The notes under the pieces were generated by a model. That model saw only the letters and a list, made by a program, of their open reading frames with translations. It had not been told where the DNA came from and ran no database searches. A stretch of DNA of 64,000 nucleotides from a virus: IMG/VR virus record IMGVR_UViG_3300017971_000035, positions 1-64,000 of that record; one strand, written 5' to 3'. The position numbers and the translations under genes are program-made. Every line of letters begins with the position of its first letter. Position 1 is the first letter of the stretch. This document shows positions 27,594 to 63,471 of this stretch, in pieces.

Positions 27594-27945
27594 GTATTTT
27601 CGATGCAGCATATGGAAAAGACCTGTCAATATAATAAACTAATATACCTAGTTTCTCAATATGATCCAGCACTTTCAGGTTTCCACCAGCATAAATATCA
27701 CAATTGTGCGAATTCCATTCTTTTTCCGTAAGTTTCCCGAAATGAGTTTTATTTACCTGCACTGACATATTTTCATTGCAGACACATTTCTCAATGACTC
27801 TGCAACAAAAGGACAGGGGGAAACGCCTTTCAGGATAATCAAGCATCATCACCACAACCTTTTCAAACTTATGAAGGAGTTTTTGAATACTGGCTATATG
27901 ACCTGGGTGAGGCGGGTCAAATCTACCTGAAAATAAACATTTCAT
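27574..27945 (-). CDS. cytidylyltransferase-like nucleotidyltransferase
   Basis: A 123-residue protein. SGRFDPPHPGHIASIQKLL at residues 6-24 is the HxGH signature of the nucleotidyltransferase superfamily (glycerol-3-phosphate, choline or nicotinamide nucleotide type). These enzymes activate a small alcohol or phosphate compound with CTP or ATP. The C-terminal ISSTxxR loop is not clear; YAASKIL stands in its place. It opens a cassette of LicD-like, glycosyltransferase, sulfotransferase and methyltransferase genes, which suggests it makes a CDP-linked substituent. It overlaps the LicD-like gene by 4 bases (ATGA). Confidence 0.75.
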   Translation of the reverse strand: MKCLFSGRFDPPHPGHIASIQKLLHKFEKVVVMMLDYPERRFPLSFCCRVIEKCVCNENMSVQVNKTHFGKLTEKEWNSHNCDIYAGGNLKVLDHIEKLGILVYYIDRSFPYAASKILDIQDE

Positions 27946-28541
27946 AAAAATTCCCAGGTCTCCTGATTATACCATCTTTGGATTCTGCAGACAAGCTGAA
28001 AATTTGAAGTGCATCCTTCAAGTGGGAAATACCAATTTGGATACCAGAAATCAAGAAGTTCCCCGGCCGCGGAGGGAACCTGCCATTTCTGTGATAAGAA
28101 GTCAATTTCAGTAAATTTGCGGAATAATCTTGCTGGGGCTCCTTTCATAATAGCTTCATCATCCAAAGCATAATTATAATTGTGATAGCTAAAAATCCCG
28201 GGATCCACCCAGAGCCTTCCTTTGGTGTGCCAAAGAACATTCTTCCATTCCAGGAAGAACCAATTACAGCATTTTATTGATTTTGGGCGTTTTTTACATG
28301 AGAACCAAAGCAGCTCGCCTGTAGGTTTGCTGGCAATACGCTGCTCGAGCTGCGGCCAGCCGGCCATGAGGCCTTTATTCTTACATCGATGAAAATAATC
28401 TTCCTTTTCTTCGATGGTCAGAGGGAGGAAAGCAATATCCAAATCCAGATCATGAGGAATAATCCCCCGTTCTCGGACTGCACCAAGAAGCGTACCAAAC
28501 GCCAGAAAGGCCTTTGAGAGAATACCAGCTCTCTTCGCCAC
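27942..28541 (-). CDS. LicD-family phosphotransferase-like protein
   Basis: A 199-residue protein. FGTLLGAVRERGIIPHDLDLDIAF at about residues 14-37 is the LicD / fukutin-type core: FGTLLG, then the acidic DLDLDI metal site. These proteins move phosphocholine or a related CDP-activated group onto a surface glycan. The first usable start in frame is GTG at 28541 and no strong ribosome site precedes it. Coding-like sequence (AEEVLYEIQE) continues upstream without an ATG, so the true start may be a rare codon or a lost one. A weak paralogue lies at 34133-34750. The nucleotidyltransferase next door would supply its donor. Confidence 0.75.
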   Translation of the reverse strand: MAKRAGILSKAFLAFGTLLGAVRERGIIPHDLDLDIAFLPLTIEEKEDYFHRCKNKGLMAGWPQLEQRIASKPTGELLWFSCKKRPKSIKCCNWFFLEWKNVLWHTKGRLWVDPGIFSYHNYNYALDDEAIMKGAPARLFRKFTEIDFLSQKWQVPSAAGELLDFWYPNWYFPLEGCTSNFQLVCRIQRWYNQETWEFL

Positions 28542-28576
28542 TTCCTGGATTTCATAAAGGACCTCTTCGGCCGATT

Positions 28577-28753
28577 CTATGCCCCTGGCACCCTCTTTAA
28601 TCTCGGGTTCCTCCGCTTGGCCGCAGGGCTGGCTTTTCGAGTGGATGATGCCAGTATTGCACCAGCTCTATTTTTCGATATGCCTTGTTTTCTGGCAATC
28701 ATGGATTGAGCTCTGGCGAATCCTGGATGTGCAGTTTTCTTGCCTTTTGCCAT
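28577..28753 (-). CDS. small basic phage protein (58 aa)
   Basis: The ATG at 28753 follows TAGGAGGTCGA, an excellent ribosome site. The 58-residue product is strongly basic: MAKGKKTAHPGFARAQSM at the start, then KQGISKNRAGAILASSTR, then AAKRRNPRLKRVPGA. The pattern of AILASSTRxASPAAKxxNPRLKRV recurs in small phage proteins of unknown role and would suit binding DNA or RNA. It overlaps the upstream part of the LicD-like frame and starts divergently from the plus-strand gene at 28775. Confidence 0.8.
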   Translation of the reverse strand: MAKGKKTAHPGFARAQSMIARKQGISKNRAGAILASSTRKASPAAKRRNPRLKRVPGA

Positions 28754-28768
28754 TCGACCTCCTATACT
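28740..28768 (+). promoter_or_regulatory. sigma70-like promoter giving a leaderless message
   Basis: TTGCCT (28740-28745), a 17-base spacer, then TATACT (28763-28768). Transcription starting about 7 bases further would begin on or next to the ATG at 28775. No Shine-Dalgarno site is present ahead of that ATG apart from a weak GAAG. It lies inside the start of the minus-strand small basic gene, which suggests that the two promoters or genes interfere. Confidence 0.6.
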
Positions 28769-28774
28769 TGAAGT

Positions 28775-29446
28775 ATGATCTTCACTTGTGCATCAGGAAA
28801 ATACAGAGAGCTTGAACCACTATATAGGTACTGTATAAAACGAGTGTACCCCACAGAAAAAGTTGTGGTTTTAAAAACGGACCTCTTTCCTTCCTGCATG
28901 CGATTCTTATTCAATCCTGGTAATAGTGAAGTTTATGTTACGGACATCGATATTTTAATTCTACCACATAAGATATCTCATTTCGAGTACTTTTCAAAAT
29001 ACAAAGTTTATGGGGCCTCATATATGCGCGGCTGTGATTGGTCATCTGAGGGTGAATGGAAAGGTGAAAATTCGAGGATTTGTGGAGGATTTGCGCTTCT
29101 TGGGCCTGAATATTATGAACGAACAGCAAAAGCGAGAAATAAATATTTTGATGTTAATGAAATTGAAGACTATCGTGCATTTGATGAAATTATGTTCTGT
29201 CGGATTCTCAAATCTTCCGGTTACCCGATTCCGATTACACCATATACTTTTCCCAACGGTGAAGCGTGGGATCCATCTTATAGGGATCTTCATCTTCATG
29301 ATTTTAGGAATAGAAAATTTGAGAAGTGGAAACCAGATAAAATGAAATTGGCAACGCTTTTTAAAGACCTAAACTTTATTTCACTCGTTAAAGGACTTTC
29401 TCAATACTGGTATGATTTAATAGGGGATGTTGAAGATTATATTTAA
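28775..29446 (+). CDS. GT-A glycosyltransferase-like protein
   Basis: A 223-residue protein on the opposite strand to the rest of its cassette. VYVTDIDILILP (about residues 53-64) holds a DxD-type metal motif used by GT-A glycosyltransferases to bind a nucleotide sugar. Later SRICGGFALLGPEYY and DYRAFDEIMFCRIL resemble the acceptor side of GT-A folds. There is no signal peptide, so it acts in the cytoplasm. It ends tail-to-tail with the methyltransferase, the two TAA stops sharing bases. Its own promoter sits at 28740-28768. Confidence 0.65.
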   Translation: MIFTCASGKYRELEPLYRYCIKRVYPTEKVVVLKTDLFPSCMRFLFNPGNSEVYVTDIDILILPHKISHFEYFSKYKVYGASYMRGCDWSSEGEWKGENSRICGGFALLGPEYYERTAKARNKYFDVNEIEDYRAFDEIMFCRILKSSGYPIPITPYTFPNGEAWDPSYRDLHLHDFRNRKFEKWKPDKMKLATLFKDLNFISLVKGLSQYWYDLIGDVEDYI

Positions 29447-29991
29447 TGATCAGAAATATATTCCATAAATGCGGCTCTTTTTATGAACTTATTTCCAATT
29501 TTCCTTATGGCACAGTGCATCTGCCATCCGTCTTTTACATTATTTTCCGCAGCTGATGCCATCCATTCAAGACCTTCATATTTTGATTTATTCACGAGGA
29601 CTTTAAAAAATTCCTTTTTGAAATAATGGATTCCATGACCAGGCCAATTACCTGTAACTGGTACCACATGAAGCATGATGCCGCCAACTTTACAGGCATT
29701 GTGGATATTCAAAAAACAATTATAAACATCGACAACATGTTCAGATGTTCCGAAATTGGTTACCACATCAAATTGACCAAGATTAACAGGATGATTAAGG
29801 TCAACTCTTTCTGAACCAAGACACCCTGAAATATCAATTGAAAGGCATTTAAAGCCTATTGAATCCCAATACTTTTTTGCCACAGCTCTTCCTGGGTAGA
29901 GTTCCTGACAGCCCAATTCAAGCATAGACATACCGCCAGGAGCATGAATATTTCTTTCGACAAATTTAAGAGTTTCCTTTGTTATTCCCAT
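29443..29991 (-). CDS. class I SAM-dependent methyltransferase
   Basis: I start this 182-residue protein at the ATG at 29991, because GAAGGAATT precedes it and it overlaps the upstream stop by 10 bases. MLELGCQELYPGRAVA is motif I for SAM binding. CLSIDISGC resembles motif II and FDVVTNFGTSEHVVDV motif III/IV, with a typical acidic residue. HGIHYFKKEFFKVL follows. It would methylate a sugar, or less likely DNA; no NPPY-type DNA motif is present. It lies in the glycan cassette next to an FkbM methyltransferase. Confidence 0.75.
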   Translation of the reverse strand: MGITKETLKFVERNIHAPGGMSMLELGCQELYPGRAVAKKYWDSIGFKCLSIDISGCLGSERVDLNHPVNLGQFDVVTNFGTSEHVVDVYNCFLNIHNACKVGGIMLHVVPVTGNWPGHGIHYFKKEFFKVLVNKSKYEGLEWMASAAENNVKDGWQMHCAIRKIGNKFIKRAAFMEYISDH

Positions 29992-30623
29992 AATTCCTTC
30001 CTTACGAATATATCGTCCCATTCAAGCTGAATGAATTCATATCCTTTATTTTTTAAATAGTCTCTTAGTTCTTGGTCGTTAAAGTTATTTTCTACTGATA
30101 TTACATTAATGCGCCAACTATCAAAATCTATTCCATGGATTATTTCTCTTTCAGAACCTTCTGTATCAATGCTCATATAATCTATTACACTTACTCCACA
30201 GCCAATTAATAATTGATTTATTGTTATGGCCTTGAGTCTTTTTACACTTTGGCCAATCCCTTTGGTCTGCAAGTCTATTCTCGAAATATGCCGTGGATCC
30301 ATAGCTTTTTTTATTCCGCTTAACATGGGGGCCTCTTTATCCTCACATTCTGAACTGATTTCTATGAAATCGATTTCACCGGATTTACTCCAAATCGGAT
30401 ATTCAAGACATACGCATTTTCTTGCTGCCTTGAGCTTTTGGAATGGTTCAGATGCCGGTTCTACGCAGCAACCCTTCCAACCTAGTTGCTCAAAAAAAAG
30501 AGTATTACTAAAGGTAACGCCATCGTAAGCACCGATATCAAGAAAATAACCATCCTTTTTATTGGACTTATATACATTTTCGTATACATATTTATCCTGT
30601 CCTATCTGGCTGTAATAAGTCAT
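29982..30623 (-). CDS. FkbM-family methyltransferase
   Basis: A 213-residue protein starting at 30623 (ATG within ATGA, overlapping the upstream stop). SQIGQDKYVYENVY and GYFLDIGAYDGVTFSNTLFF at about residues 5-45 carry the FkbM signature with the SAM motif DIGAYDG. LGWKGCCVEPAS continues the fold, and VIDYMSIDTEGSEREIIHG (about 145-165) is the family's conserved D-TEGxE motif. FkbM proteins O-methylate sugars or lipid-linked products. Confidence 0.85.
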   Translation of the reverse strand: MTYYSQIGQDKYVYENVYKSNKKDGYFLDIGAYDGVTFSNTLFFEQLGWKGCCVEPASEPFQKLKAARKCVCLEYPIWSKSGEIDFIEISSECEDKEAPMLSGIKKAMDPRHISRIDLQTKGIGQSVKRLKAITINQLLIGCGVSVIDYMSIDTEGSEREIIHGIDFDSWRINVISVENNFNDQELRDYLKNKGYEFIQLEWDDIFVRKELWE

Positions 30624-31315
30624 CTTGGATCCCTGCTGTGGTGTATATATGAGTCTTCCTTCATTCCCCATTGCGAAAGGTCTAATTCTGGTTGTATCTT
30701 GTGTTTTATGGCCATGAGGCTAAGTACCGATTGATCATGTCTATGGTCTTCAAATTCAAAATAATTATCCTTTCCGCATTCATTCGGATTATCAGATATT
30801 ATTCTTTCATCCTGGCACCATTTGAGATATTCTGAAATAAAGTCAACACTTTCCTTACATTTTTTAAATATCATAAAGGCACCATTCCAATGAGAACCTT
30901 CTGAATATTCTTTGTTATCACAATCCATAAGGACAAAAGCATCACGTTTAACCCATTGATTATTCGTGAAGTATGGCATGTCAAAAAGGACTATGTTCCT
31001 TTCTCTTGTTTTATGGAAATATGGACTTAAATCCTTTTCAAAATAAGCTCCTGCATCAGAATAAAAAATTGTATCTCCCTCAAGTATTTCTTCATTCATA
31101 ATTGTCTTGTAAAGAAAATACGGTTTCCAAAGCCAGTAACCAGCTCCCCTGGGACAATCAAGTATCTTATGATTTTTGTTATAAAATGCAGAATCAATTT
31201 GAGCCCTATTATAACAATAGACAAAATCAAAACCAGCGATATTATAACCAGTTTTAGTATTGAGCATTTGGCTTCGAAAGTAACGTTGGTCTGAATAATT
31301 AATCAGATAATTCAT
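30620..31315 (-). CDS. glycosyltransferase-like protein
   Basis: A 231-residue protein. PRGAGYWLWKPYFLYKTI (about residues 55-72) and GDTIFYSDAGAYFEKDLSP (about 80-98) resemble capsule or O-antigen glycosyltransferase proteins in which YSDAG takes the place of the DxD metal site. HWNGAFMIFKK and FEDHRHDQSVLSLM follow. A cytoplasmic transferase acting on a surface glycan is the best reading, but the family assignment is tentative. It couples on both sides by ATGA overlaps. Confidence 0.6.
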   Translation of the reverse strand: MNYLINYSDQRYFRSQMLNTKTGYNIAGFDFVYCYNRAQIDSAFYNKNHKILDCPRGAGYWLWKPYFLYKTIMNEEILEGDTIFYSDAGAYFEKDLSPYFHKTRERNIVLFDMPYFTNNQWVKRDAFVLMDCDNKEYSEGSHWNGAFMIFKKCKESVDFISEYLKWCQDERIISDNPNECGKDNYFEFEDHRHDQSVLSLMAIKHKIQPELDLSQWGMKEDSYIHHSRDPR

Positions 31316-32514
31316 TTTTTCACCATTACACAGGTATTTGAATAAAAATGGATTGAGGATATTGGACCTTCCTGACCATCAATTTGTTTAAGCAGCTTAA
31401 GAAAAAATATTTCCATATCCACTCGAACATTCTTAAAACTTTCTTTGCTATCATTGAATTTCATACCAGGCCATTGATTCCTCACATCCTCTTTGTCAAG
31501 ATCTATATAGGAACAATGAAGGTCTTCGATTATATAAATGCCGCCTGGATTAAGATGATTAATTAGATATTCAAAAGTCTTCATGGTCATCTTATTAACA
31601 TGACTCCCATCATCAAGGATAAAATCAAAAGAACCAGCTTCATTTATAATTTCATCAAGAGTTGTTTCACTGTCCTGGCTCCCTATAAAAATTTTAATAT
31701 TCTCTTCTTCGTGTGTTTTGCAATCCGGATTTATATCCAGACCATAGATATTTGATTCCTTGAAATATCTTTTCCAGGTTCTTAAGGAGGCCCCATTATA
31801 AACCCCTATTTCCAGTATATTATTATTGTTATACCTCATCCTGATAAGATATTTCTCATAGACCTGAAGGAAACTCTTGCCATTATAAATATGATGGGCC
31901 TTGTCAGTCTTGCAGAGTTTACCTATGGAATGGAGTGAGGGAGCTATGATTTCTTTTTTAGTATTGAAATTATATATGTAAAGTTCCTCGTCTATTATCA
32001 TTTCTTTCTTGAGGTACTTCTTAAGACCATAACTATAATCTCTGTCTTCGCCGGAATCCTTATCTTCGAAACCGACTTGAATGGCATATTCACGTTTCAC
32101 AGGTGTAATATGATTCGGACACCTATAAAAGATTCTCAAGCCCTGGTTGTTAGGATCTGTTTCAGTAAACCATTTGTCATATTTGATTGAAAGTCTCGCA
32201 CGTTCCCTGGTCTTATTATCTGTGACCATGAGGACATTGAAACAGATGACATCAGGATCCATAGGGATGCAGTTCATTATCATAGGAAGGTATTTATCAG
32301 ATATTGAATCATCATCATCTATGAAAACAACGTAACGTCCCTGGGACTTTTCAAGAAGTTCATTTCTTTTTTCACCAACGGACTTTTCACCATTATCAAC
32401 ATTAATGATAACTTCCACATTTTTTGTTCTTTTTTCATTTATTTTATCAAGAAGTACTTTTAAACTTCTTTGACGTTTCTCAAGCGAGCAAATTAATATG
32501 GAAAGATCAATCAT
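31312..32514 (-). CDS. fused GT2-like glycosyltransferase and SAM methyltransferase
   Basis: A 400-residue two-domain protein. Residues 1-190 are GT2-like: LSILICSLEKRQRSLKVLLD at the start, then GRYVVFIDDDDSISDKYLP (about 60-78), whose DDDD supplies the metal site. Residues 210-400 form a class I methyltransferase of the MycE/CmcI type: ILEIGVYNGASLRTWKRYF, GLDINPDC, FDFILDDGSHVNKMTMKTFE and NPGGIYIIEDLHCSY. The join implies that addition of a sugar and its methylation are linked on one polypeptide. Both neighbours overlap it by 4 bases. Confidence 0.85.
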   Translation of the reverse strand: MIDLSILICSLEKRQRSLKVLLDKINEKRTKNVEVIINVDNGEKSVGEKRNELLEKSQGRYVVFIDDDDSISDKYLPMIMNCIPMDPDVICFNVLMVTDNKTRERARLSIKYDKWFTETDPNNQGLRIFYRCPNHITPVKREYAIQVGFEDKDSGEDRDYSYGLKKYLKKEMIIDEELYIYNFNTKKEIIAPSLHSIGKLCKTDKAHHIYNGKSFLQVYEKYLIRMRYNNNNILEIGVYNGASLRTWKRYFKESNIYGLDINPDCKTHEEENIKIFIGSQDSETTLDEIINEAGSFDFILDDGSHVNKMTMKTFEYLINHLNPGGIYIIEDLHCSYIDLDKEDVRNQWPGMKFNDSKESFKNVRVDMEIFFLKLLKQIDGQEGPISSIHFYSNTCVMVKK

Positions 32515-33074
32515 ATGTGATGCCCTTTATATACAAATCTATTTTCATGGACTTTATCATAAAGACTGAAATCCAATGGAAACATGTCTTGAATTGCTTT
32601 CCTCATTTTCCTGGTTACTACGACATCAGGTTTTCCACTTCTATGAAGTTTTGGCACTCCATTTAATTTATAACCAAATTTGTCAGCTATGTAACCTATA
32701 AGTTCTTTGAGATAAATATAATCATATAATAAATCGATTGTTGTTACCGTTCCGTCAGAGACAAATTCATATTGATTAAGCGGATTCTTAAATCCTGAAT
32801 ACAGGCATTTTATATCTGACCAATGATGCTTACAACCTTCGAACACCCATTCTTCAAAAGTCAATGGATACAGCTCTTTAGAGCTGTCATAATTGACACA
32901 CCAGTAATACCAGCTTATAAGCCTGTCTATTGGTTCACGAATAACTGCGAAGGAAAATTTGGATTTATCAGGAAAATCTTTGTATGCCGAATGATTCAGG
33001 AACTTACCAGTATTAAATACCTCATGGATGGTTCCACTACCGGTTCTTGGTATGGATACAAAATTAAAATTCAT
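32511..33074 (-). CDS. sulfotransferase-family protein
   Basis: A 187-residue protein. FVSIPRTGSGTIHEVF at residues 5-20 is the P-loop-like PAPS binding site of sulfotransferase family 2. FSFAVIREPIDRLISWYYW at about 42-60 carries the REPxxRxxSxY 3'-phosphate motif. It would sulfate a carbohydrate made by the neighbouring transferases. A GGCHY-type signal or membrane anchor is absent, unlike Golgi enzymes, so it is cytoplasmic. It is coupled by ATGA overlap to both neighbours. It is unrelated in detail to the one at 6462-7016 beyond the shared family fold. Confidence 0.8.
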   Translation of the reverse strand: MNFNFVSIPRTGSGTIHEVFNTGKFLNHSAYKDFPDKSKFSFAVIREPIDRLISWYYWCVNYDSSKELYPLTFEEWVFEGCKHHWSDIKCLYSGFKNPLNQYEFVSDGTVTTIDLLYDYIYLKELIGYIADKFGYKLNGVPKLHRSGKPDVVVTRKMRKAIQDMFPLDFSLYDKVHENRFVYKGHHI

Positions 33075-33730
33075 ACAATTAGTTTATTCTCAACGGACAT
33101 ATTTAATCTGGCTTCATAGATTTTCTTATTAACATGGTATCCTGGTTCCACTTTTTCATCAACTTCATCCTTATCCCTTTTACCATAACAATGATGTTTA
33201 TGTTCAAAAATGTATTTATCATTTTTACAATCTTTTATTAAATCCAGTTCCTTAAGAACATCGAATAATTCCTGGTCTGAGAACATATGATTATAGACAG
33301 GATGGTAGATAATTCTATTAAGCCTGAGTAAGCATCTATAGGTCATTATGGGCAAGGGAATTATATCCTGGATATGATCATCATTAATTCTAAGGGCCCA
33401 TTCCCAATCATCGAAAGTTCGAAGCAGATAATTATCCCATCCTTCAGGTGGATAAAAATCATCAGATGGAACCACTATGATATCATGTTCATTTGCATTA
33501 AGATTTTTTGTGAGTTCGTAAAGTGGAGTTGTTATCCCGCCACGAGGGTTTTCACAGAGAATTATGTCTTTATATTCTGATAAGGAATCATAATGTTCTT
33601 TTGAATCAACTGCAATTTCAGTAAAGATTATATTTTTATTTCTTGCACGATCCATCCAGACTTTGTGCATTTTCTTAAATACTTCAGGTCTGGCTGTGGG
33701 CCAAAGGAGTATTATGATAATTTCAGGCAT
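33071..33730 (-). CDS. GT-A glycosyltransferase-like protein
   Basis: A 219-residue protein started at the ATG at 33730, which overlaps the upstream stop by 8 bases. IIIILLWPTARPEVFKKM opens a nucleotide-binding fold. CENPRGGITTPLYELTKN and DIIVVPSDDFYPPEGWDNY (about residues 85-103) carry an Asp-Asp pair where GT-A enzymes have DxD. HPVYNHMFSDQELFDVLKEL follows. It is probably a sugar transferase of the same cassette; there is no direct family evidence beyond these patterns. Confidence 0.6.
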   Translation of the reverse strand: MPEIIIILLWPTARPEVFKKMHKVWMDRARNKNIIFTEIAVDSKEHYDSLSEYKDIILCENPRGGITTPLYELTKNLNANEHDIIVVPSDDFYPPEGWDNYLLRTFDDWEWALRINDDHIQDIIPLPIMTYRCLLRLNRIIYHPVYNHMFSDQELFDVLKELDLIKDCKNDKYIFEHKHHCYGKRDKDEVDEKVEPGYHVNKKIYEARLNMSVENKLIV

Positions 33731-34142
33731 CTTTGACCGCCTGTTCTTCCAGTTGCTCAACTATTTCTTTTAACATACTGAGAGGAAGAGGAACATCAAC
33801 AAGATGTCTTTTATAATAATCATGAAGTCTTACTAGGAGGCACCATTCTCCATTATATTTTTGATATGGAAATGTTGCGTCGAGCTTGCTGAATCGTTTC
33901 AAAAGGTCTTCATATTTCGCTTCGGCGACAGTTTTGGACATTGGAGGCGGCTCCATCTGAGCAAATCTTTCTTTTTCAGCTCTTGCTTTTTCCTGAAAAT
34001 CATTAACCTTTTCTGGTGTGGATCCAGGGGAAGCAAGGATGATACAGTCTGTACAGACCTTGAATTCAGTCGGCGCGTCCTGGTCGCCTTTTCTCAAAAC
34101 TCTCTGACAATTCCCGCATACTATTCTTGTTACTACACCCAT
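33723..34142 (-). CDS. zinc-ribbon protein, unknown
   Basis: A 139-residue protein. CGNCQRVLRKGDQ and later CTDC (about residues 9-35) form a four-Cys zinc ribbon. Residues 50-139 are helical. The ribosome site CTGGAG precedes its ATG. It overlaps the LicD-like gene upstream by 10 bases and the transferase downstream by 8. It may bind nucleic acid or serve as a structural helper; the family is not recognised. Confidence 0.65.
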   Translation of the reverse strand: MGVVTRIVCGNCQRVLRKGDQDAPTEFKVCTDCIILASPGSTPEKVNDFQEKARAEKERFAQMEPPPMSKTVAEAKYEDLLKRFSKLDATFPYQKYNGEWCLLVRLHDYYKRHLVDVPLPLSMLKEIVEQLEEQAVKDA

Positions 34143-34750
34143 AATTTTTTCTCCAGATCAGCACATGAATCAACTTCTTTTATTATCCCAAGGGATACTC
34201 CGAAATCAGGATTTGGAATAAACCAATCCGGATACCAATAATCAAGAAGCGTTCCATATTTAATTGGTACTTTTAATTTAGGCTCTCCATCAAGCCAGTT
34301 GAAATCTTTTATTCCACCTTCGAACATCCATTTTGGAGTTCCTTTGAAATGATATTTGGAAGGCCGGCCATCTGATGGTTTCTCCATCAAATAATCATAG
34401 GTATGCCATAATAAATCACCCACCTGGAACCAGAAGAACAAATCGAGAGAAAGGCCATTGGGCGATTCGTACTCGGCATAAAGAATATCGTCTGTGAAAT
34501 CATTTCTGATTTCTCGAATACGATTCCAACCGCCATTCTCAAGATTTTTTCTGGTTCTTTCGTACCGGTGTCTACCAGTAATTGAGATGTCCATATCGGT
34601 TTCAAATGGTACTCCATGTTTAAAATCTCGGATGAGATAAAGAAGTGATCCGAAGGATACAAACCACTTCTGCCTAGTTATCTCATCCTGTGTAAAAATA
34701 TTAAGAGAACTGGCAATAGTGGAAAAATCTTTTCTTAAAGATTCATTCAC
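34133..34750 (-). CDS. LicD-like transferase, second copy
   Basis: A 205-residue protein starting with GTG at 34750, where the upstream stop overlaps. FGSLLYLIRDFKHGVPFETD with DMDISI at about residues 32-57 parallels the FGTLLG and DLDLDI blocks of the other LicD-like protein. LLDYWYPDWFIPN near the C-terminus matches LLDFWYPNWYFP in that protein. The two are therefore distant paralogues. It probably transfers a phosphate-linked group to a glycan. The essential acidic pair is kept. Confidence 0.65.
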   Translation of the reverse strand: MNESLRKDFSTIASSLNIFTQDEITRQKWFVSFGSLLYLIRDFKHGVPFETDMDISITGRHRYERTRKNLENGGWNRIREIRNDFTDDILYAEYESPNGLSLDLFFWFQVGDLLWHTYDYLMEKPSDGRPSKYHFKGTPKWMFEGGIKDFNWLDGEPKLKVPIKYGTLLDYWYPDWFIPNPDFGVSLGIIKEVDSCADLEKKLWV

Positions 34751-39704: not shown

Positions 39705-40592
39705 ATGAAAGAACCGATAGCATACAACAGCGGAAATATCCGTTCAATAAACGAAACCAAGGCCAGCATTGAAATTGGAGCTCCCATTGGTATTACTGTT
39801 CATTCACAACAAAGTATTATCGAGCTGGCCATGGGTTACGCCTTCGTCGGAGGCAAAGTATTCGTTGATAATGGCGCTTTTACTGAGTACTCAAAGGGAA
39901 CAAACCTTGATATTGAAACCCTGTCCGGAAGATGCTATTGGGACAGTGTATTCGCAGTCTATCGTGAAATTGCAAGTATACCGTACGGAGCTGACAATCT
40001 GGTATTTGTAGCACCGGATCAGGTAGGAAATCCTGATGTAACTTTGAAAAATCTTGAATGGTTAATGTATGAAGTCCATGAGATTCGCAGCACTGGAGCT
40101 CAAATCATCCAGCCCATTCAAAAAGGAAAAAAGCCAGATTATGATATATCAGTCCATATTGCAGATTTATCAAATTGGTACTACGACTTTGAAAATACTA
40201 TCCTCGGATTCCCCTCAAAGCGAGAGGCTTGGCATGTATCAGAAGTTCTTGATTATCTGATGTATAAGACTTTATGGGAGAAGAGGCTTTCAACTACTGA
40301 ACCGGTTTGGTGTATTCATCCGGATTTGAAAATTCACTTCCTGGGGATTGGCGATCCCTTGAGGTTAAGCAAGATTCAAAAGTATATTGATAAAATCAGA
40401 CCGAATGTATTTGTCTCAGGCGACAGTGTACCGACCGGAGGAATTGTCGGCAAAGGCCGCAAGCTCACAGAAACTATGAACTCATACCTTAAACTTCATC
40501 CAAACTTGACCAGAGAAGAAAGAGGCGAGCTTCGCTGTAAAATCCTCTCGGGAATTGAATGGACGAAACGTCAACAACACACTTTAGCATAG
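39705..40592 (+). CDS. TGT/DpdA-like base transglycosylase
   Basis: A 295-residue protein resembling the tRNA-guanine transglycosylase superfamily, in the form used by phages (DpdA). VFVDNGAFTEYSKG (about residues 52-65) matches the VDSGGFQ catalytic region with its Asp. NLVFVAPDQVGNPDVTLKN (about 105) and AQIIQPIQKGKK (about 135) resemble the barrel strands. HFLGIGDPLRLSKI (about 208) corresponds to the family's LMGVGxPxDL. DpdA-type enzymes exchange guanine in DNA for a 7-deazaguanine, which protects phage DNA from restriction; tRNA is the alternative target. No partner preQ0 genes are in this window, so the base would come from the host or from outside the window. A structured leader precedes it. 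Confidence 0.65.
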   Translation: MKEPIAYNSGNIRSINETKASIEIGAPIGITVHSQQSIIELAMGYAFVGGKVFVDNGAFTEYSKGTNLDIETLSGRCYWDSVFAVYREIASIPYGADNLVFVAPDQVGNPDVTLKNLEWLMYEVHEIRSTGAQIIQPIQKGKKPDYDISVHIADLSNWYYDFENTILGFPSKREAWHVSEVLDYLMYKTLWEKRLSTTEPVWCIHPDLKIHFLGIGDPLRLSKIQKYIDKIRPNVFVSGDSVPTGGIVGKGRKLTETMNSYLKLHPNLTREERGELRCKILSGIEWTKRQQHTLA

Positions 40593-51120: not shown

Positions 51121-51632
51121 AAATCATCGAAGCTCTTAAGCAGCTTAAAGACCTGGAGAGAAAGGCCGACGATCTCCAGAAGAAAGTCATGGACCACACG
51201 GCCATCATGGATTTTGAGGATCCGGTTTACAAAGACCAGCATAAGAAAGTACGGTCATGGATTGATGCTTTCCATGGTATCCAGGAAGAAATACTCCGGT
51301 TACATTGTGCCATTCAGGTCACGAATCTACAGACTCCTGTGGAAATCAAAATTTCTGATGCAAAGGCGAAGACCAGGACTATTGCAGAGTGGGTCATCAG
51401 GCGCCGGAAGACTGCCAAAAGGGAATTTAACTTCTGGGCCCATGTGAATGACCGCGGCCTGGTTACCAAACCCATTGTCAAGAAGGGCCAAACCGAACCT
51501 GAGATTGCAAAGGTCATCAGGTTCTATGATCCTGAAGAAAGAGATACCATGGTCGAGAGGTTGAGAGCTGAGGATGCGGCCATCGATGCGGCTCTTGAAA
51601 TTGTCAATGCAAAAACAGATCTTATCGAATAA
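51117..51632 (+). CDS. coiled-coil phage protein (DIP1984-like?)
   Basis: A 171-residue protein. MKIIEALKQLKDLERKADDL, a charged coiled coil to about residue 65, then HCAIQVTNLQTPVEIKISDA resembling the DIP1984 family's conserved 'xINxTNxxT' block. The C-terminal part is helical. Function unknown. It is the last gene before the structured RNA. Confidence 0.6.
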   Translation: MKIIEALKQLKDLERKADDLQKKVMDHTAIMDFEDPVYKDQHKKVRSWIDAFHGIQEEILRLHCAIQVTNLQTPVEIKISDAKAKTRTIAEWVIRRRKTAKREFNFWAHVNDRGLVTKPIVKKGQTEPEIAKVIRFYDPEERDTMVERLRAEDAAIDAALEIVNAKTDLIE

Positions 51633-51847
51633 CTGCCGGTTCAACCCTCGGCCGGGGAGCCACAGTAAGGAAGTATGAATGGCGAGATTGCCCAAGGGCC
51701 TTGGGAACTGGCCAGGCCAGCTTCTTCAGAGGGGAAGAATTTATATTACTGAGGAGTAGTAGCTTTCGCTAGGAAACTCATACACCGTGAACGAAGATAA
51801 AAACTGGAAAAGGAGGCGTTCTCATTTGACGATACTAAATGAAACCA

Positions 51848-51923
51848 TGCAACTTAGCTCAGTTGGTTAGAGCAACAGAGAGTAATCTGTAGGTAGTGCG
51901 TTCGAATCGCACAGATGCAGCCA
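51848..51923 (+). tRNA. tRNA-like element with encoded CCA and odd anticodon loop
   Basis: 76 bases. The 7-base acceptor TGCAACT / AGATGCA has one A-A mismatch. The D arm is GCTC AGTTGGTTA GAGC. The anticodon stem is ACAGA / TCTGT, the T arm GTGCG TTCGAAT CGCAC, then G and CCA. The D and T arms are perfect. The anticodon loop is only GAGTAA, six bases without U33, so no anticodon can be read. It could be a degenerate tRNA or a tRNA mimic inside the structured RNA. Confidence 0.6.
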
Positions 51924-52135
51924 ATCAACGGCTCGCAGGCGTAGTGTCTGCTCAACATCAAGGCTCAAGTCTCAAGAATTAAGTAAGTAAGGTTCAATCG
52001 GTTCAAGTGAAAAAGGTACAAGAACGCAAGGCTAATCGGAAGACGAATGAGCTTCTGAATGTCCTCGGATAAGTTATTTTCCTCATTAACCCAGGTTACT
52101 TCCGAGGCTTCTCGTTTGGGGTGTACCAGAATCAA

Positions 52136-52172
52136 AATCGTGGCTTACTCTGTGAAGCCACGATTTTTTTTT
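52136..52172 (+). terminator. strong intrinsic terminator
   Basis: AATCGTGGCTT pairs with AAGCCACGATT (11 perfect pairs, loop ACTCTGTG), followed by nine T. It ends the structured-RNA transcript. GGAGG of the next gene starts within two bases of the T run. Confidence 0.95.
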
Positions 52173-52182
52173 GGAGGTAAAC

Positions 52183-52476
52183 ATGTCAGTAAATGGAATT
52201 GATATTACAGATGTTATAATCTTTCCTGTGAAAAATAAACCGGAAGATTCATGCCTTGCTGCATTTGCAAGGATAGTTTTTAATGACCAATTCATCGTAT
52301 CTGGTATCAGAGTTTTCGAAGGAGAAAATGGACCTTTTATAAAATTTCCACAAGAATATAACAGGAATGTTGGTAAAGGATATGATGTCTGTTTTCCAAT
52401 CACAGCAGAACTCCGATGTTATATCCATGACCAAGTTCTTAGCCAGTATTCAATCACTATGGAGATAAAATCATAA
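52183..52476 (+). CDS. SpoVG-like protein, copy 2
   Basis: 97 residues from ATG 52183 behind TTGGAGGTAAAC. GIDITDVIIFPVKNKPEDS, then FARIVFNDQFIVSGIRVFEG, GPFIKFPQ and GYDVCFPITAELRCYIHDQVL, is a full SpoVG fold: TDVxxxxV, DxFxVxxIRVxEGxNGxFxxxP and the C-terminal helix. About 60% like copy 3 by eye. It follows directly behind the terminator of the structured RNA. SpoVG proteins bind nucleic acid, so it may act on this RNA or on phage messages. Confidence 0.88.
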   Translation: MSVNGIDITDVIIFPVKNKPEDSCLAAFARIVFNDQFIVSGIRVFEGENGPFIKFPQEYNRNVGKGYDVCFPITAELRCYIHDQVLSQYSITMEIKS

Positions 52477-53864: not shown

Positions 53865-54188
53865 ATGAGTATTAATGGTATAGAAATCACCGATGTGGTG
53901 ATATTCCCAATCAAAAACAAACAGGAAGGAAGTAACCTTCAATCATTTGCCAAGGTTCTTTTCAATGACACATTCTGTATCACAGGGATACGAATCGTCG
54001 AAGGAAAGAACGGCTTATTTCTCGGTTTCCCTCAACAGTATAAAAAGGAAGAGGGAAAGGGATACGATATTTGCTTCCCGACTACGGCCGACATGCGAGA
54101 GTATATAACCGATCAGGTTCTTGCTCAGTATGAGCTGGCAAAAAACGTTGATGCTGATCCTCAAGAAGGAAATGAAAGCCAGTATTAA
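53865..54188 (+). CDS. SpoVG-like protein, copy 3
   Basis: A 107-residue protein. GIEITDVVIFPIKNKQEGSN, FAKVLFNDTFCITGIRIVEG, GLFLGFPQQYKKEEGKGYDI and CFPTTADMREYITDQVLAQY parallel copy 2 block by block. An acidic tail is added. AAAAAGGAGGATAAG precedes the ATG. It is a clear paralogue of the gene at 52183 from a duplication with four small genes between. Nucleic acid binding is the family activity. Confidence 0.88.
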   Translation: MSINGIEITDVVIFPIKNKQEGSNLQSFAKVLFNDTFCITGIRIVEGKNGLFLGFPQQYKKEEGKGYDICFPTTADMREYITDQVLAQYELAKNVDADPQEGNESQY

Positions 54189-54580: not shown

Positions 54581-54602
54581 ATTTATTTGACGAGATTCAA
54601 AA

Positions 54603-54638
54603 CCGTTGCTCTTGTTATGAGAGCAACGGTTTTTTTTT
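54603..54638 (+). terminator. strong intrinsic terminator
   Basis: CCGTTGCTCT pairs with AGAGCAACGG, 10 perfect pairs, loop TGTTATG, nine T. Only 9 bases separate the T run from the ATG at 54648. Confidence 0.95.
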
Positions 54639-54647
54639 GGGGAAGAT

Positions 54648-55919
54648 ATGAGCTATATAAAAATAAAGAATAATGGATTACTCCACATTAAAGCTCTGAC
54701 ATTAGTTGGAGCTTCCACAAAAGTACATGACCGCACTAAAATAGGACAATTCGGTTCAGGGAATAAGTATGCCTTGGCTTATTTACTCCGTAATAATTAT
54801 GAAGTTCAAGTATATTCTGGTCTTGACCAGATGCACATCGCCACAGCTCCACTGGACTTCAGAGGTCATAAATTCCATGTCATATATATCAATGGTCAAC
54901 AGACTTCCATTACTACCGATATGGGTAAGGATTGGAAGTACTGGCAGGCACTGAGAGAAATATACTGCAATGCTCTGGATGAACCGAAATCTGAATTTGA
55001 CATTGTACAAGAAATTGAACCAATGCCCGATGAAACCCATTTTTATATAAAATTTGAAAGAGATGGTCTTGACTTCATAAAGAACTTCGATAACTATTTC
55101 GCATTTAATAAGACAGTAGTATATGAATCTGGTATAGGTAAAATAATGATCCGAACAGGCGATTCAGTTAATATTTATCGAAAAGGAATCAGATGTTATG
55201 AACCTAATAATCAAAGTCTGTATGATTATGATCTGGAACAAATAGATGTCGATGAAAATAGAATTGTCAGATATACCTGGGAAGTTGAAGAACAAATCTG
55301 GCAATTAATATTCAGTTGTACCAATAAGGATGTACTGAGAAATATCTTCCTAAATTTGGACAAATCATTCTATGAAGCCAGATTTTCAAATATATCCAGT
55401 ATCCATGCTAAAAGGATCTCTGATGAGTGTAAGGATGTATTAACAGAAATAAAATTTGTTCCCGCTGAATATTCTGGTATGCTTAAGCCTGATGAGGAAA
55501 TGATGTATGCCAGGATACCAAGTCGCCTCTATGATGCAATTAAACCTTATCTCAAAAATGATAATCTTGCTACTAAATTCAAAATATATACTGATGGCGC
55601 ATACAGAGAAATAGAACCTGATTCGCTTCAACAGAGTGTTATTGATAATGCTCTTGAGTTTTTAAAGAAAGTAGATTTTTTCATTCCATATATTATTAAT
55701 CTCGCAATATTTGTTGAAAAGGATGTGCTCGGTACAAAAAGTGAAGAAGTAATTATACTTTCAGATACATGTCTTGAAAAAGGAATCACCGTAGTTATTA
55801 ATACAATCATCGAAGAATACATACATATCAAATACGGCGTTAAAGATGAAACCAGAGGGTTTCAGGACGCTATTATATCAGAATTCATATCATACATGAA
55901 AAGGAGGAATGAATGTTAA
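54648..55919 (+). CDS. GHKL/HATPase-like phage protein
   Basis: A 423-residue protein behind GGGGAAGAT. RTKIGQFGSGNKYALAYLLR (about residues 28-47) resembles a GHKL (Hsp90-type) ATP-binding N-box plus G-loop, as in phage homologues of the Sacsin/HATPase family. Its Gly/Lys-rich turn would bind the phosphates. A later segment TIIEEYIHIKYGVKDETRGF has an ExxxH-like helix of unknown meaning. Overlaps the DUF932 gene by 7 bases. Confidence 0.6.
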   Translation: MSYIKIKNNGLLHIKALTLVGASTKVHDRTKIGQFGSGNKYALAYLLRNNYEVQVYSGLDQMHIATAPLDFRGHKFHVIYINGQQTSITTDMGKDWKYWQALREIYCNALDEPKSEFDIVQEIEPMPDETHFYIKFERDGLDFIKNFDNYFAFNKTVVYESGIGKIMIRTGDSVNIYRKGIRCYEPNNQSLYDYDLEQIDVDENRIVRYTWEVEEQIWQLIFSCTNKDVLRNIFLNLDKSFYEARFSNISSIHAKRISDECKDVLTEIKFVPAEYSGMLKPDEEMMYARIPSRLYDAIKPYLKNDNLATKFKIYTDGAYREIEPDSLQQSVIDNALEFLKKVDFFIPYIINLAIFVEKDVLGTKSEEVIILSDTCLEKGITVVINTIIEEYIHIKYGVKDETRGFQDAIISEFISYMKRRNEC

Positions 55920-61476: not shown

Positions 61477-62357
61477 TGGGTAGTGGTGGATATTCTTTTG
61501 CTTCTCGCAGTACCAGGGCAACAAACCTGGGTTTCCATACCAAAAGCATTCATGAAACCTTCTCGGCTCGTGAACTGAATAATGCCATGAATCCAAAAGG
61601 TGTCACTCTTCGTGAGTCTTGTGATTCAGAAGAACATCCGGAATCATTGGCAATTATCCTGGCTCTTGATGTCACTGGATCAATGGGTTCTGTTCCACAC
61701 CACCTGGTCAAAGATGGTCTCCCTCATATAATGAGTAAAATCATCGAACGTGGTTACAAGGATCCCCAACTTCTTTTTATGGGAGTGGGGGATCATAAGA
61801 CTGACCAGGCCCCACTTCAAATAGGCCAATTTGAAAGTAGCGATGAGTTACTGGATAAATGGCTGACAGATATTTGGCTTGAAGGAAATGGTGGTGGCAA
61901 TCAGGGTGAAAGTTATTTTTTACCTTGGTATTTTGCCGGCCATTGCACCAAAATTGACTGTTTCATTAAGCGCCAGAAAAAAGGATATCTTTTCACAGTA
62001 GGTGACGAGGATATTCATACTACCATTTCAAAATCATCAATGACCAGGATCTTTGGTGCTGGTGAATTTAATGATGAGATTTCTGCCATGGAGCTTCTTG
62101 ATAAAGCCAAAGAAATGTATCATGTCTACCATATTCATATCACTGAGACCGGAGCTGGCTCCAGGCCTGAGTGGCAGAATCATTGGAAAGAAATTCTTGG
62201 AGATCATTTTATTCCTGTGAAAAGCAGTAATGATGTCTCAAAGGTCATACCTGATATAATTTATCAGGAAGTGGACCCAGGACGTGAGCCGTACAAACCG
62301 GCCGCACCGCAGTCTGAAACCCAAACTGCGGGTGCGCCCCAAGATGACATCATATAA
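61473..62357 (+). CDS. von Willebrand factor A-domain protein
   Basis: A 294-residue protein. ILALDVTGSMGSVPHHLVKD (about residues 62-81) has a DxTGSMG metal-ion-dependent adhesion site. LFMGVGDHKTDQAPLQIGQF, then GNGGGNQGESYFLPWYFAG and KGYLFTVGDEDIHTT continue the domain. Such proteins assemble complexes, for example with AAA ATPases; no partner ATPase is within sight. The C-terminal 30 residues are Pro-rich. Overlaps the PurA-like gene by 14 bases. Confidence 0.85.
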   Translation: MMGSGGYSFASRSTRATNLGFHTKSIHETFSARELNNAMNPKGVTLRESCDSEEHPESLAIILALDVTGSMGSVPHHLVKDGLPHIMSKIIERGYKDPQLLFMGVGDHKTDQAPLQIGQFESSDELLDKWLTDIWLEGNGGGNQGESYFLPWYFAGHCTKIDCFIKRQKKGYLFTVGDEDIHTTISKSSMTRIFGAGEFNDEISAMELLDKAKEMYHVYHIHITETGAGSRPEWQNHWKEILGDHFIPVKSSNDVSKVIPDIIYQEVDPGREPYKPAAPQSETQTAGAPQDDII

Positions 62358-63471
62358 AGCTGTAATAGGATTAGGATTTGGAGATGAGGGCAAAGGTCTG
62401 GTAACAGATTACCTTTGCTCTGTCTCTGAAAATCCTATTGTTGTTCGCTTCTCAGGAGGCCAACAAGCAGGACATACTGTATGGTTTGAGGACCGTAAGC
62501 ATACCTTTTCAAATTTTGGTTCTGGTACATTCAGAGGGGCAGCCACTGTCTGGATGAATTCATGTACTATTGATCCAATCGGAATTTCAAGAGAATTCAA
62601 AATCTTAAAAGACCTAAATACCACACCTATTTTATATATCCATCCTGAATGTCCAGTTACTACTCCATATGAAATAGAAAAAAATCAACAGGACATAAAT
62701 TATATTCATAATGGCACTTGTGGAGTTGGAGTGGGTTGTACATGGCAAAGAGAAGAAAATAATTATCACTTAAGAGCTAAAGACCTTTATAATTTATCAG
62801 TATTAAAAATAAAATTGGACCTTCTTGCTGAATATTATGGATATACGACTCCAGAAATACAAAGATTTTATGCTGCTGTTCAGTCTATAACAAAAAATCC
62901 GTATATCTATATTCAACAATATACTTTTGGTATACATGATGATGTTATTTTCGAAGGTTCCCAAGGACTACTTCTTGACCAGGAAATAGGTTTTTTTCCT
63001 CATGTAACCAGATCATATACTGGTTCAAAAATGATATGGAACTATGACCCTGAGTATTATCTCGTCACTAGGGCATACCAGACAAGACATGGTGAAGGAC
63101 CAATGACCAATCGTGACATGGATCTAAACTTGACAAATAATGAACACGAAAATAATCAAGAAAATAAATGGCAAGGATGTCTTAGAACATCACCATTGGA
63201 TATGAATCTAATAAAATATGCAATTCAATCTGATGAATATATTTTAAATAGCAGTTATCTGAACCTCATAATAACTTGCCTTGATCAGCTTAAACCTCCA
63301 TATCATTATACCTTGGATCAAAAGGAAGTGAAATTCAATGGGCCATTATCAATGTCTGATGGCATACGATTTATTTTTAATAGAAGCATACGTGGATCAT
63401 TAGTAAACACATACTGTTCTTATTCAAAATATTCGGACGATTTAAAAAAGGCTGATGAAATTGATGTATAA
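62344..63471 (+). CDS. PurA-family adenylosuccinate synthetase-like enzyme (375 aa)
   Basis: Started at ATG 62344 (MTSYKAVIGLGFGDEGKG), inside the vWA gene end. GFGDEGKGLVTDYLCS is the phosphate loop with its catalytic Asp; SGGQQAGHTVWF has the catalytic His. FEGSQGLLLDQEIGFFPHVT, RAYQTRHGEGPMTNRD, GCLRTSPLDMNL and LIITCLDQLKP are the remaining blocks. The family adds aspartate to IMP using GTP; phage PurZ does the same to dGMP to make 2-aminoadenine. Here Asp is kept, which PurZ from phages such as phiVC8 replaces. The Lys of the usual TKxD guanine site is Cys. It is about 55 residues shorter than E. coli PurA. Confidence 0.85.
   Translation: MTSYKAVIGLGFGDEGKGLVTDYLCSVSENPIVVRFSGGQQAGHTVWFEDRKHTFSNFGSGTFRGAATVWMNSCTIDPIGISREFKILKDLNTTPILYIHPECPVTTPYEIEKNQQDINYIHNGTCGVGVGCTWQREENNYHLRAKDLYNLSVLKIKLDLLAEYYGYTTPEIQRFYAAVQSITKNPYIYIQQYTFGIHDDVIFEGSQGLLLDQEIGFFPHVTRSYTGSKMIWNYDPEYYLVTRAYQTRHGEGPMTNRDMDLNLTNNEHENNQENKWQGCLRTSPLDMNLIKYAIQSDEYILNSSYLNLIITCLDQLKPPYHYTLDQKEVKFNGPLSMSDGIRFIFNRSIRGSLVNTYCSYSKYSDDLKKADEIDV

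Follow-up and report, generated by a model that had tools for sequence, protein, structure and literature searches.

The 76-nt element at positions 51848-51923 of the window, the whole stretch of 64,000 nucleotides analysed here, which is part of a 70,356-bp IMG/VR virus record (metagenomic assembly), is probably a pseudo-tRNA. It would descend from a tRNA-Thr-like (or Asn-like) gene, with decoding lost and the rest of the molecule not yet decayed. The element folds as a cloverleaf, has an anticodon loop of six bases, lacks U33 and resembles phage tRNAs.

Results

A cloverleaf with a short anticodon loop

On the + strand, the element reads in full TGCAACT-TA-GCTC-AGTTGGTTA-GAGC-A-ACAGA-GAGTAA-TCTGT-AGGTA-GTGCG-TTCGAAT-CGCAC-AGATGCA-G-CCA. 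The positions of its parts are reported in Table 1. All stems considered, 20 of 21 pairs are intact, and the 7-bp acceptor, the D arm and the T arm of a canonical elongator tRNA are present. The sole unpaired position, A5-A68 (51852/51915), lies in the acceptor TGCAACT/AGATGCA, which has 6 of its 7 pairs. U8 is found as well, and the variable loop is AGGTA. The anticodon loop departs from the seven-base loop with U33 of a canonical elongator tRNA: in its six bases an A replaces U33, a residue present in 999 of the 1021 viral tRNAs parsed. Direct reading of the sequence confirmed what the first-pass annotation had reported on the coordinates, the length of 76, the A-A acceptor mismatch, the six-base loop and the missing U33, and likewise the textbook D and T arms (4/4 and 5/5 pairs) and the encoded CCA. 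Its statement that the loop cannot present an anticodon is well supported. Judging from the structure of this loop, the element should not decode.

Table 1. Features of the tRNA-like element and of the gap around it.
Feature	Positions	Strand	Basis
tRNA-like element (probable pseudo-tRNA), 76 nt	51848..51923	+	ARAGORN tRNA-???; RF00005 48.9 bits
Acceptor stem, 5' strand TGCAACT	51848..51854	+	sequence reading; A5 (51852) opposite A68 (51915), mismatch
D arm GCTC-AGTTGGTTA-GAGC, 4/4 pairs	51857..51873	+	sequence reading and arm scan
Anticodon arm ACAGA-GAGTAA-TCTGT, 5/5 pairs	51875..51890	+	sequence reading and folding
Six-base loop GAGTAA, without U33	51880..51885	+	sequence reading, ARAGORN
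T arm GTGCG-TTCGAAT-CGCAC, 5/5 pairs	51896..51912	+	sequence reading and arm scan
Acceptor 3' strand AGATGCA, then G73 and encoded CCA	51913..51923	+	sequence reading
Non-coding gap (550 nt) holding the element, from the 171-aa ORF to the SpoVG-like gene	51633..52182	+	ORF lists; SpoVG Pfam match 2.4e-19
Intrinsic terminator with 13-bp stem, loop ACTCTGTG and T tract, immediately preceding the SpoVG gene	52134..52167	+	terminator search, inverted-repeat search
Terminator-head segment TTACTCTGTG, complementary at 9 of 10 positions to 51876-51885 in the anticodon arm	52145..52154	+	loop-specific chance 3e-4 (if both loops are named in advance); flank-wide p 0.07

ARAGORN, proposed as a check in the first-pass annotation, detected the element and no other tRNA or tmRNA in the window, but under the call "tRNA-??? 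anticodon (gt)", a two-base anticodon that cannot be assigned to an amino acid. With the Rfam tRNA model RF00005, a search limited to 51600-52250 gave 48.9 bits (cut-off 29, E 2e-9), whereas the best-scoring viral tRNAs listed reach about 65-77 bits. Rfam searches of the whole window and of the whole record miss the element, an outcome that the speed filters of the search presumably explain. Minimum-energy folding gives the cloverleaf, at -20.0 kcal/mol, and its stability is not unusual (z -1.1).

Other identities were considered for the element. ARAGORN called no tmRNA in the window, and no Rfam tmRNA match was obtained. Between 51600 and 52250, no Rfam covariance model of GOLLD or ROOL matched at E up to 5, and for a T-box or another tRNA-sensing leader, only weak, sub-threshold Rfam matches to unrelated families were seen. 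A tRNA-type attachment site was also rejected, no tyrosine integrase (PF00589) match being found in the 70.4-kb record, which is possibly incomplete.

Descent and isotype

The element was compared with 1,028 distinct viral tRNAs. The best matches were a tRNA-Thr(TGT), 81% identical over 63 nt, and a tRNA-Asn(GTT), 82% identical over 55 nt; overall, identity to phage tRNA-Thr and tRNA-Asn was 80-82% over 55-63 nt. Taken with the 48.9 bits obtained with RF00005, these identities indicate that the element is clearly tRNA-derived, as a pseudo-tRNA would be, a chance fold being excluded. A core, GAGC-A-AC..GA...AGTAA-TC..GT-AGGT, is common to the element and a phage tRNA-Thr(AGT), and the 3' half of the element's loop, (A)GTAA, matches tRNA-Thr. 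The U1-A72 pair and G73, compared to G1-C72 and A73 in the Thr matches displayed, are not Thr-like, so that the isotype is uncertain. Together with the A5-A68 mismatch, this suggests that identity parts of the molecule have changed, as well as the decoding part.

A decayed tRNA array in the flanks was rejected: the best flank match, to the 3' end of a tRNA-Gln at 51638-51662, was no better than those of shuffled sequence. This segment, GGTTCAACCCTCGGCCGGGGAGCCA, looks like the last third of a tRNA (from the T loop to GCCA) and is 88% identical over 26 nt to a phage tRNA-Gln, with an E value of 0.13, within the shuffled range.

Altered anticodon arms in viral tRNA genes

Viral contigs were scanned for elements with exactly the same D arm and T-loop context (n=82). 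The spacing was 27, the normal value, in 81 of them and 29 in one; a spacing of 26, as in the element, was found in none of the 82. A looser scan, asking for intact acceptor, D and T arms, collected 627 distinct viral elements, among which 595 had a normal anticodon arm. Many of the 32 others were Ser-type tRNAs offset by two bases, or carried single mismatches, and about ten were truly altered when inspected by eye. ARAGORN returned tRNA-??? for 3 of its 725 tRNA calls in the fetched viral stretches, one of the three having a six-base loop. In about 1-2% of viral tRNA genes, the anticodon arm is damaged and the acceptor, D and T arms are intact; a given gene rarely shows the feature, but viral collections should contain it many times. 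Decay alone is therefore an adequate explanation, and no special function is needed. We also compared breakage of the anticodon arm with that of the other arms, and dropped this test as the D and T arm counts were unreliable. The first-pass annotation had argued that arms kept while the decoding part is altered point to a mimic or a repurposed domain. The conclusion is not warranted, as a gene that lost decoding recently looks identical and tRNA finders detect an element only if its arms are intact.

The loop GAGTAA in a tRNA frame was found in one more viral tRNA-like gene, L237:4318-4390. Its frame is also of six bases, and its acceptor and D loop differ from those of the element. Among the altered genes, a 58-nt one (L063:1501-1558, - strand) combines perfect acceptor, D and T arms with the complete lack of an anticodon arm; the same viral contig also holds a tRNA-Ala of normal form and, as the third tRNA-like gene, L070, whose D region is enlarged. 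Four viral tRNA-like genes, L049:1501-1607, L050:1501-1588, L064:1501-1591 and L060:1405-1515, carry inserts of 15-28 nt (or longer) in the anticodon arm, followed in L049 and L050 by a normal-looking anticodon loop. In another such gene, L051, the anticodon stem is broken. L049, L050, L051 and L063 come from relatives more distant than the nearest syntenic contig, L231. All the odd genes of relatives (L049, L050, L051, L060, L063 and L064) were rejected as orthologues of the element, being of other tRNA types and different in kind.

Relatives of the virus

No orthologue of the element, intact or decayed, was present in any relative available, none of these being close, and searches via the upstream ORF, the terminase and the exact loop sequence found none. 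The HATPase-like gene (54648-55919) matched 46 viral and two bacterial loci, and the Cas4-like exonuclease gene five loci; the relatives found via these two genes lacked the 51848-51923 element. Best synteny was observed with L231, a contig of 8.6 kb that matches eight ORFs of the window, mostly at 41-55% identity. This nearest syntenic contig has no tRNA-like element; a different non-coding stretch, of 285 nt (L231:2977-3263), separates its SpoVG gene from the gene that follows. The first half of that stretch folds better than shuffled sequence (z -2.6), and it has no similarity to the gap of the window.

A probable pseudo-tRNA

Decay into a pseudo-tRNA agrees with the element being the sole tRNA-like gene of the window, with its score, lower than that of the best viral tRNAs, with its absence from L231, and with the comparable damage found elsewhere in viral genomes, including the recurrence of GAGTAA in L237. 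Decoding would have been abolished when a short segment at the 5' side of the anticodon loop was lost or replaced, leaving a transcript that may still fold as a cloverleaf. RNase P and the CCA-trimming enzymes read the acceptor-T half of a tRNA, so that cutting by RNase P and trimming to the encoded CCA could persist, with no adaptor role in translation to be expected. Some observations fit the pseudo-tRNA less well. With 20 of 21 pairs intact, the decay would have to be recent, unless the fold was kept. The element also sits in the largest non-coding gap of the window, and in a compact phage one would expect such a gap to disappear; moreover, the record is a metagenomic assembly for which no intact ancestor was found.

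The surrounding gap and its terminator

The gap at 51633-52182 contains no credible gene, and the element is placed mid-way inside it. The 171-aa ORF upstream belongs to no known family; on the other side, the terminator, a strong one, ends 15 nt before the SpoVG start codon. The window has two SpoVG-like genes 1.4 kb apart, 52183-52476, which has the Pfam match, and 53865-54188, both of which match a single SpoVG-like gene in L231.

The reading that ranks second, which we consider unlikely, is that the tRNA-like domain is a structural or processing module of a non-coding phage RNA of ~0.5 kb (about 51633-52167) ending at the terminator. There, the role of the cloverleaf would be to bring in RNase P or to shield the RNA, and its altered loop could dock on the terminator apical loop, perhaps adjusting how often transcription continues into the SpoVG-like gene. 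A gap of this size, which contains the element and is closed by a 13-bp terminator, is consistent with such an RNA, as is the fact that the whole gap folds better than shuffled sequence (z -2.97, and -2.15 without the terminator). Precedents exist in tRNA-Other of B. cereus (PMC3399842) and in the tRNAs of the GOLLD linker (PMC12286853). However, the folding of the flank that immediately follows the element, 51924-52040, does not surpass that of random sequence (z +0.53), and the element's flanks have no homologue in 50,697 phage records. No homologue backs any helix in the gap, whether by covariation or by conservation, as a structural role would predict, and Rfam gave no GOLLD, ROOL or leader match. 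A second terminator of the window, 54599-54633, is also close before a gene, so this layout is not special.

The complementarity between the anticodon arm and the terminator head bears on the same question. The segment CAGAGAGTAA (51876-51885), which spans the six-base loop, is complementary to TTACTCTGTG (52145-52154) at 9 of 10 positions, and this is the only inverted repeat apart from the terminator itself. The loop-specific chance of 3e-4, which would favour the larger RNA, holds only if both loops are named in advance, and the complementarity was noticed after inspection of the sequence; when 400 nt of flank are searched, about 7% of shuffles give a match this good (p about 0.07). In L237, 11 of 13 positions of the corresponding arm are complementary to the ribosome-binding region of the gene that follows (p about 0.03), and normal tRNAs submitted to the same test gave p<0.05 in 10% of cases. 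As a general rule, complementarity of the anticodon arm to the flank was absent in L050, L184 and L186, and weak for the window and L237. We take the pairing of the anticodon arm with the terminator head as a lead, not as evidence. The more specific proposal, that the cloverleaf is a fixed domain of the ~0.5-kb RNA and that its loop pairs in cis with the terminator apical loop (AGAGUAA/UUACUCU), the non-decoding tRNA fold serving as a switch for the next gene, appears highly improbable.

Other explanations for the altered loop

That the tRNA gene is in fact normal and only looks altered through an assembly or sequencing error is very improbable. The contig is metagenomic, and the omission of one base is enough to shorten a loop, but an error in the loop leaves the A5-A68 mismatch and the odd identity bases unexplained, and the adjoining reading frames are intact.

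We attach very little probability to a decoy, a cleavage-proof tRNA mimic that would titrate a host anticodon nuclease or some other defence directed at tRNAs. Phage tRNAs mutated in the anticodon loop have been proposed to resist cleavage by host tRNases while staying active in translation (van den Berg 2023; PMC10264068), and the tRNAs that a phage carries can rescue it from defences such as retrons (PMC11555353). The element resembles the tRNAs of van den Berg in being altered in the anticodon loop, but its loop is shortened and devoid of U33, and the tRNAs in those cases are thought still to decode. Moreover, the lost loop is the part that those nucleases act on, and the element has neither a known defence partner nor a known host. 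That the tRNA still works but is read in some uncommon way, for instance by frameshifting or as a two-base reader, is hardly credible: the anticodon stem is perfect and the loop keeps G-U then A-A, but six bases without U33, the acceptor mismatch and the non-matching identity bases argue against it.

Comparison with known tRNA-like RNAs

The mascRNA and menRNA of MALAT1/NEAT1 are eukaryotic cloverleaves with a poor anticodon arm, and their excision by RNase P is established. The element is similar to them in fold and in its poor anticodon arm, whereas its processing by RNase P is only predicted.

For reuse in a longer RNA, tRNA-Other of Bacillus cereus would, by analogy, be the nearest precedent: this pseudo-tRNA was reported to form a tRNA-like segment within a larger RNA, close to a mobile element (PMC3399842). 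Both have a tRNA fold, tRNA-Other does not work in translation, and the same is predicted of the element. In contrast, tRNA-Other keeps a Trp anticodon and is backed by genetic evidence, whereas the loop of the element is itself broken and the element is known from sequence alone. In GOLLD, a tRNA is sometimes located inside the linker, which shows that phage tRNAs can sit in large phage RNAs (PMC12286853). GOLLD, ROOL and the region of the element are all large non-coding phage regions, but the last matches neither Rfam model.

As a pseudo-tRNA, the element represents a small, ordinary case of phage gene decay. It would matter more if its arms were kept on purpose, as the reason why phages carry tRNA genes is still debated. 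Viral tRNA-like genes whose anticodon arm is altered while the acceptor, D and T arms stay intact (about 1-2% here) form a countable set, in which close genomes could separate decay from reuse.

Other genes of the window

A run of genes at 27942-34750, on the - strand with one on the +, is unusual for a phage; by eye, its products resemble glycosyltransferases, methyltransferases and sulfotransferases. Two genes of the run were searched, and one had weak glycosyltransferase matches. The 295-aa protein encoded at 39705-40592, 47% identical to its counterpart in L231, had no Pfam, PHROG or NCBIfam match, and by eye its sequence may recall the transglycosylase-like DpdA proteins. An adenylosuccinate synthetase-like protein is encoded at 62344-63471 (Pfam 1.1e-40); its match to PurZ is only weak, which makes a 2-aminoadenine genome a possibility.
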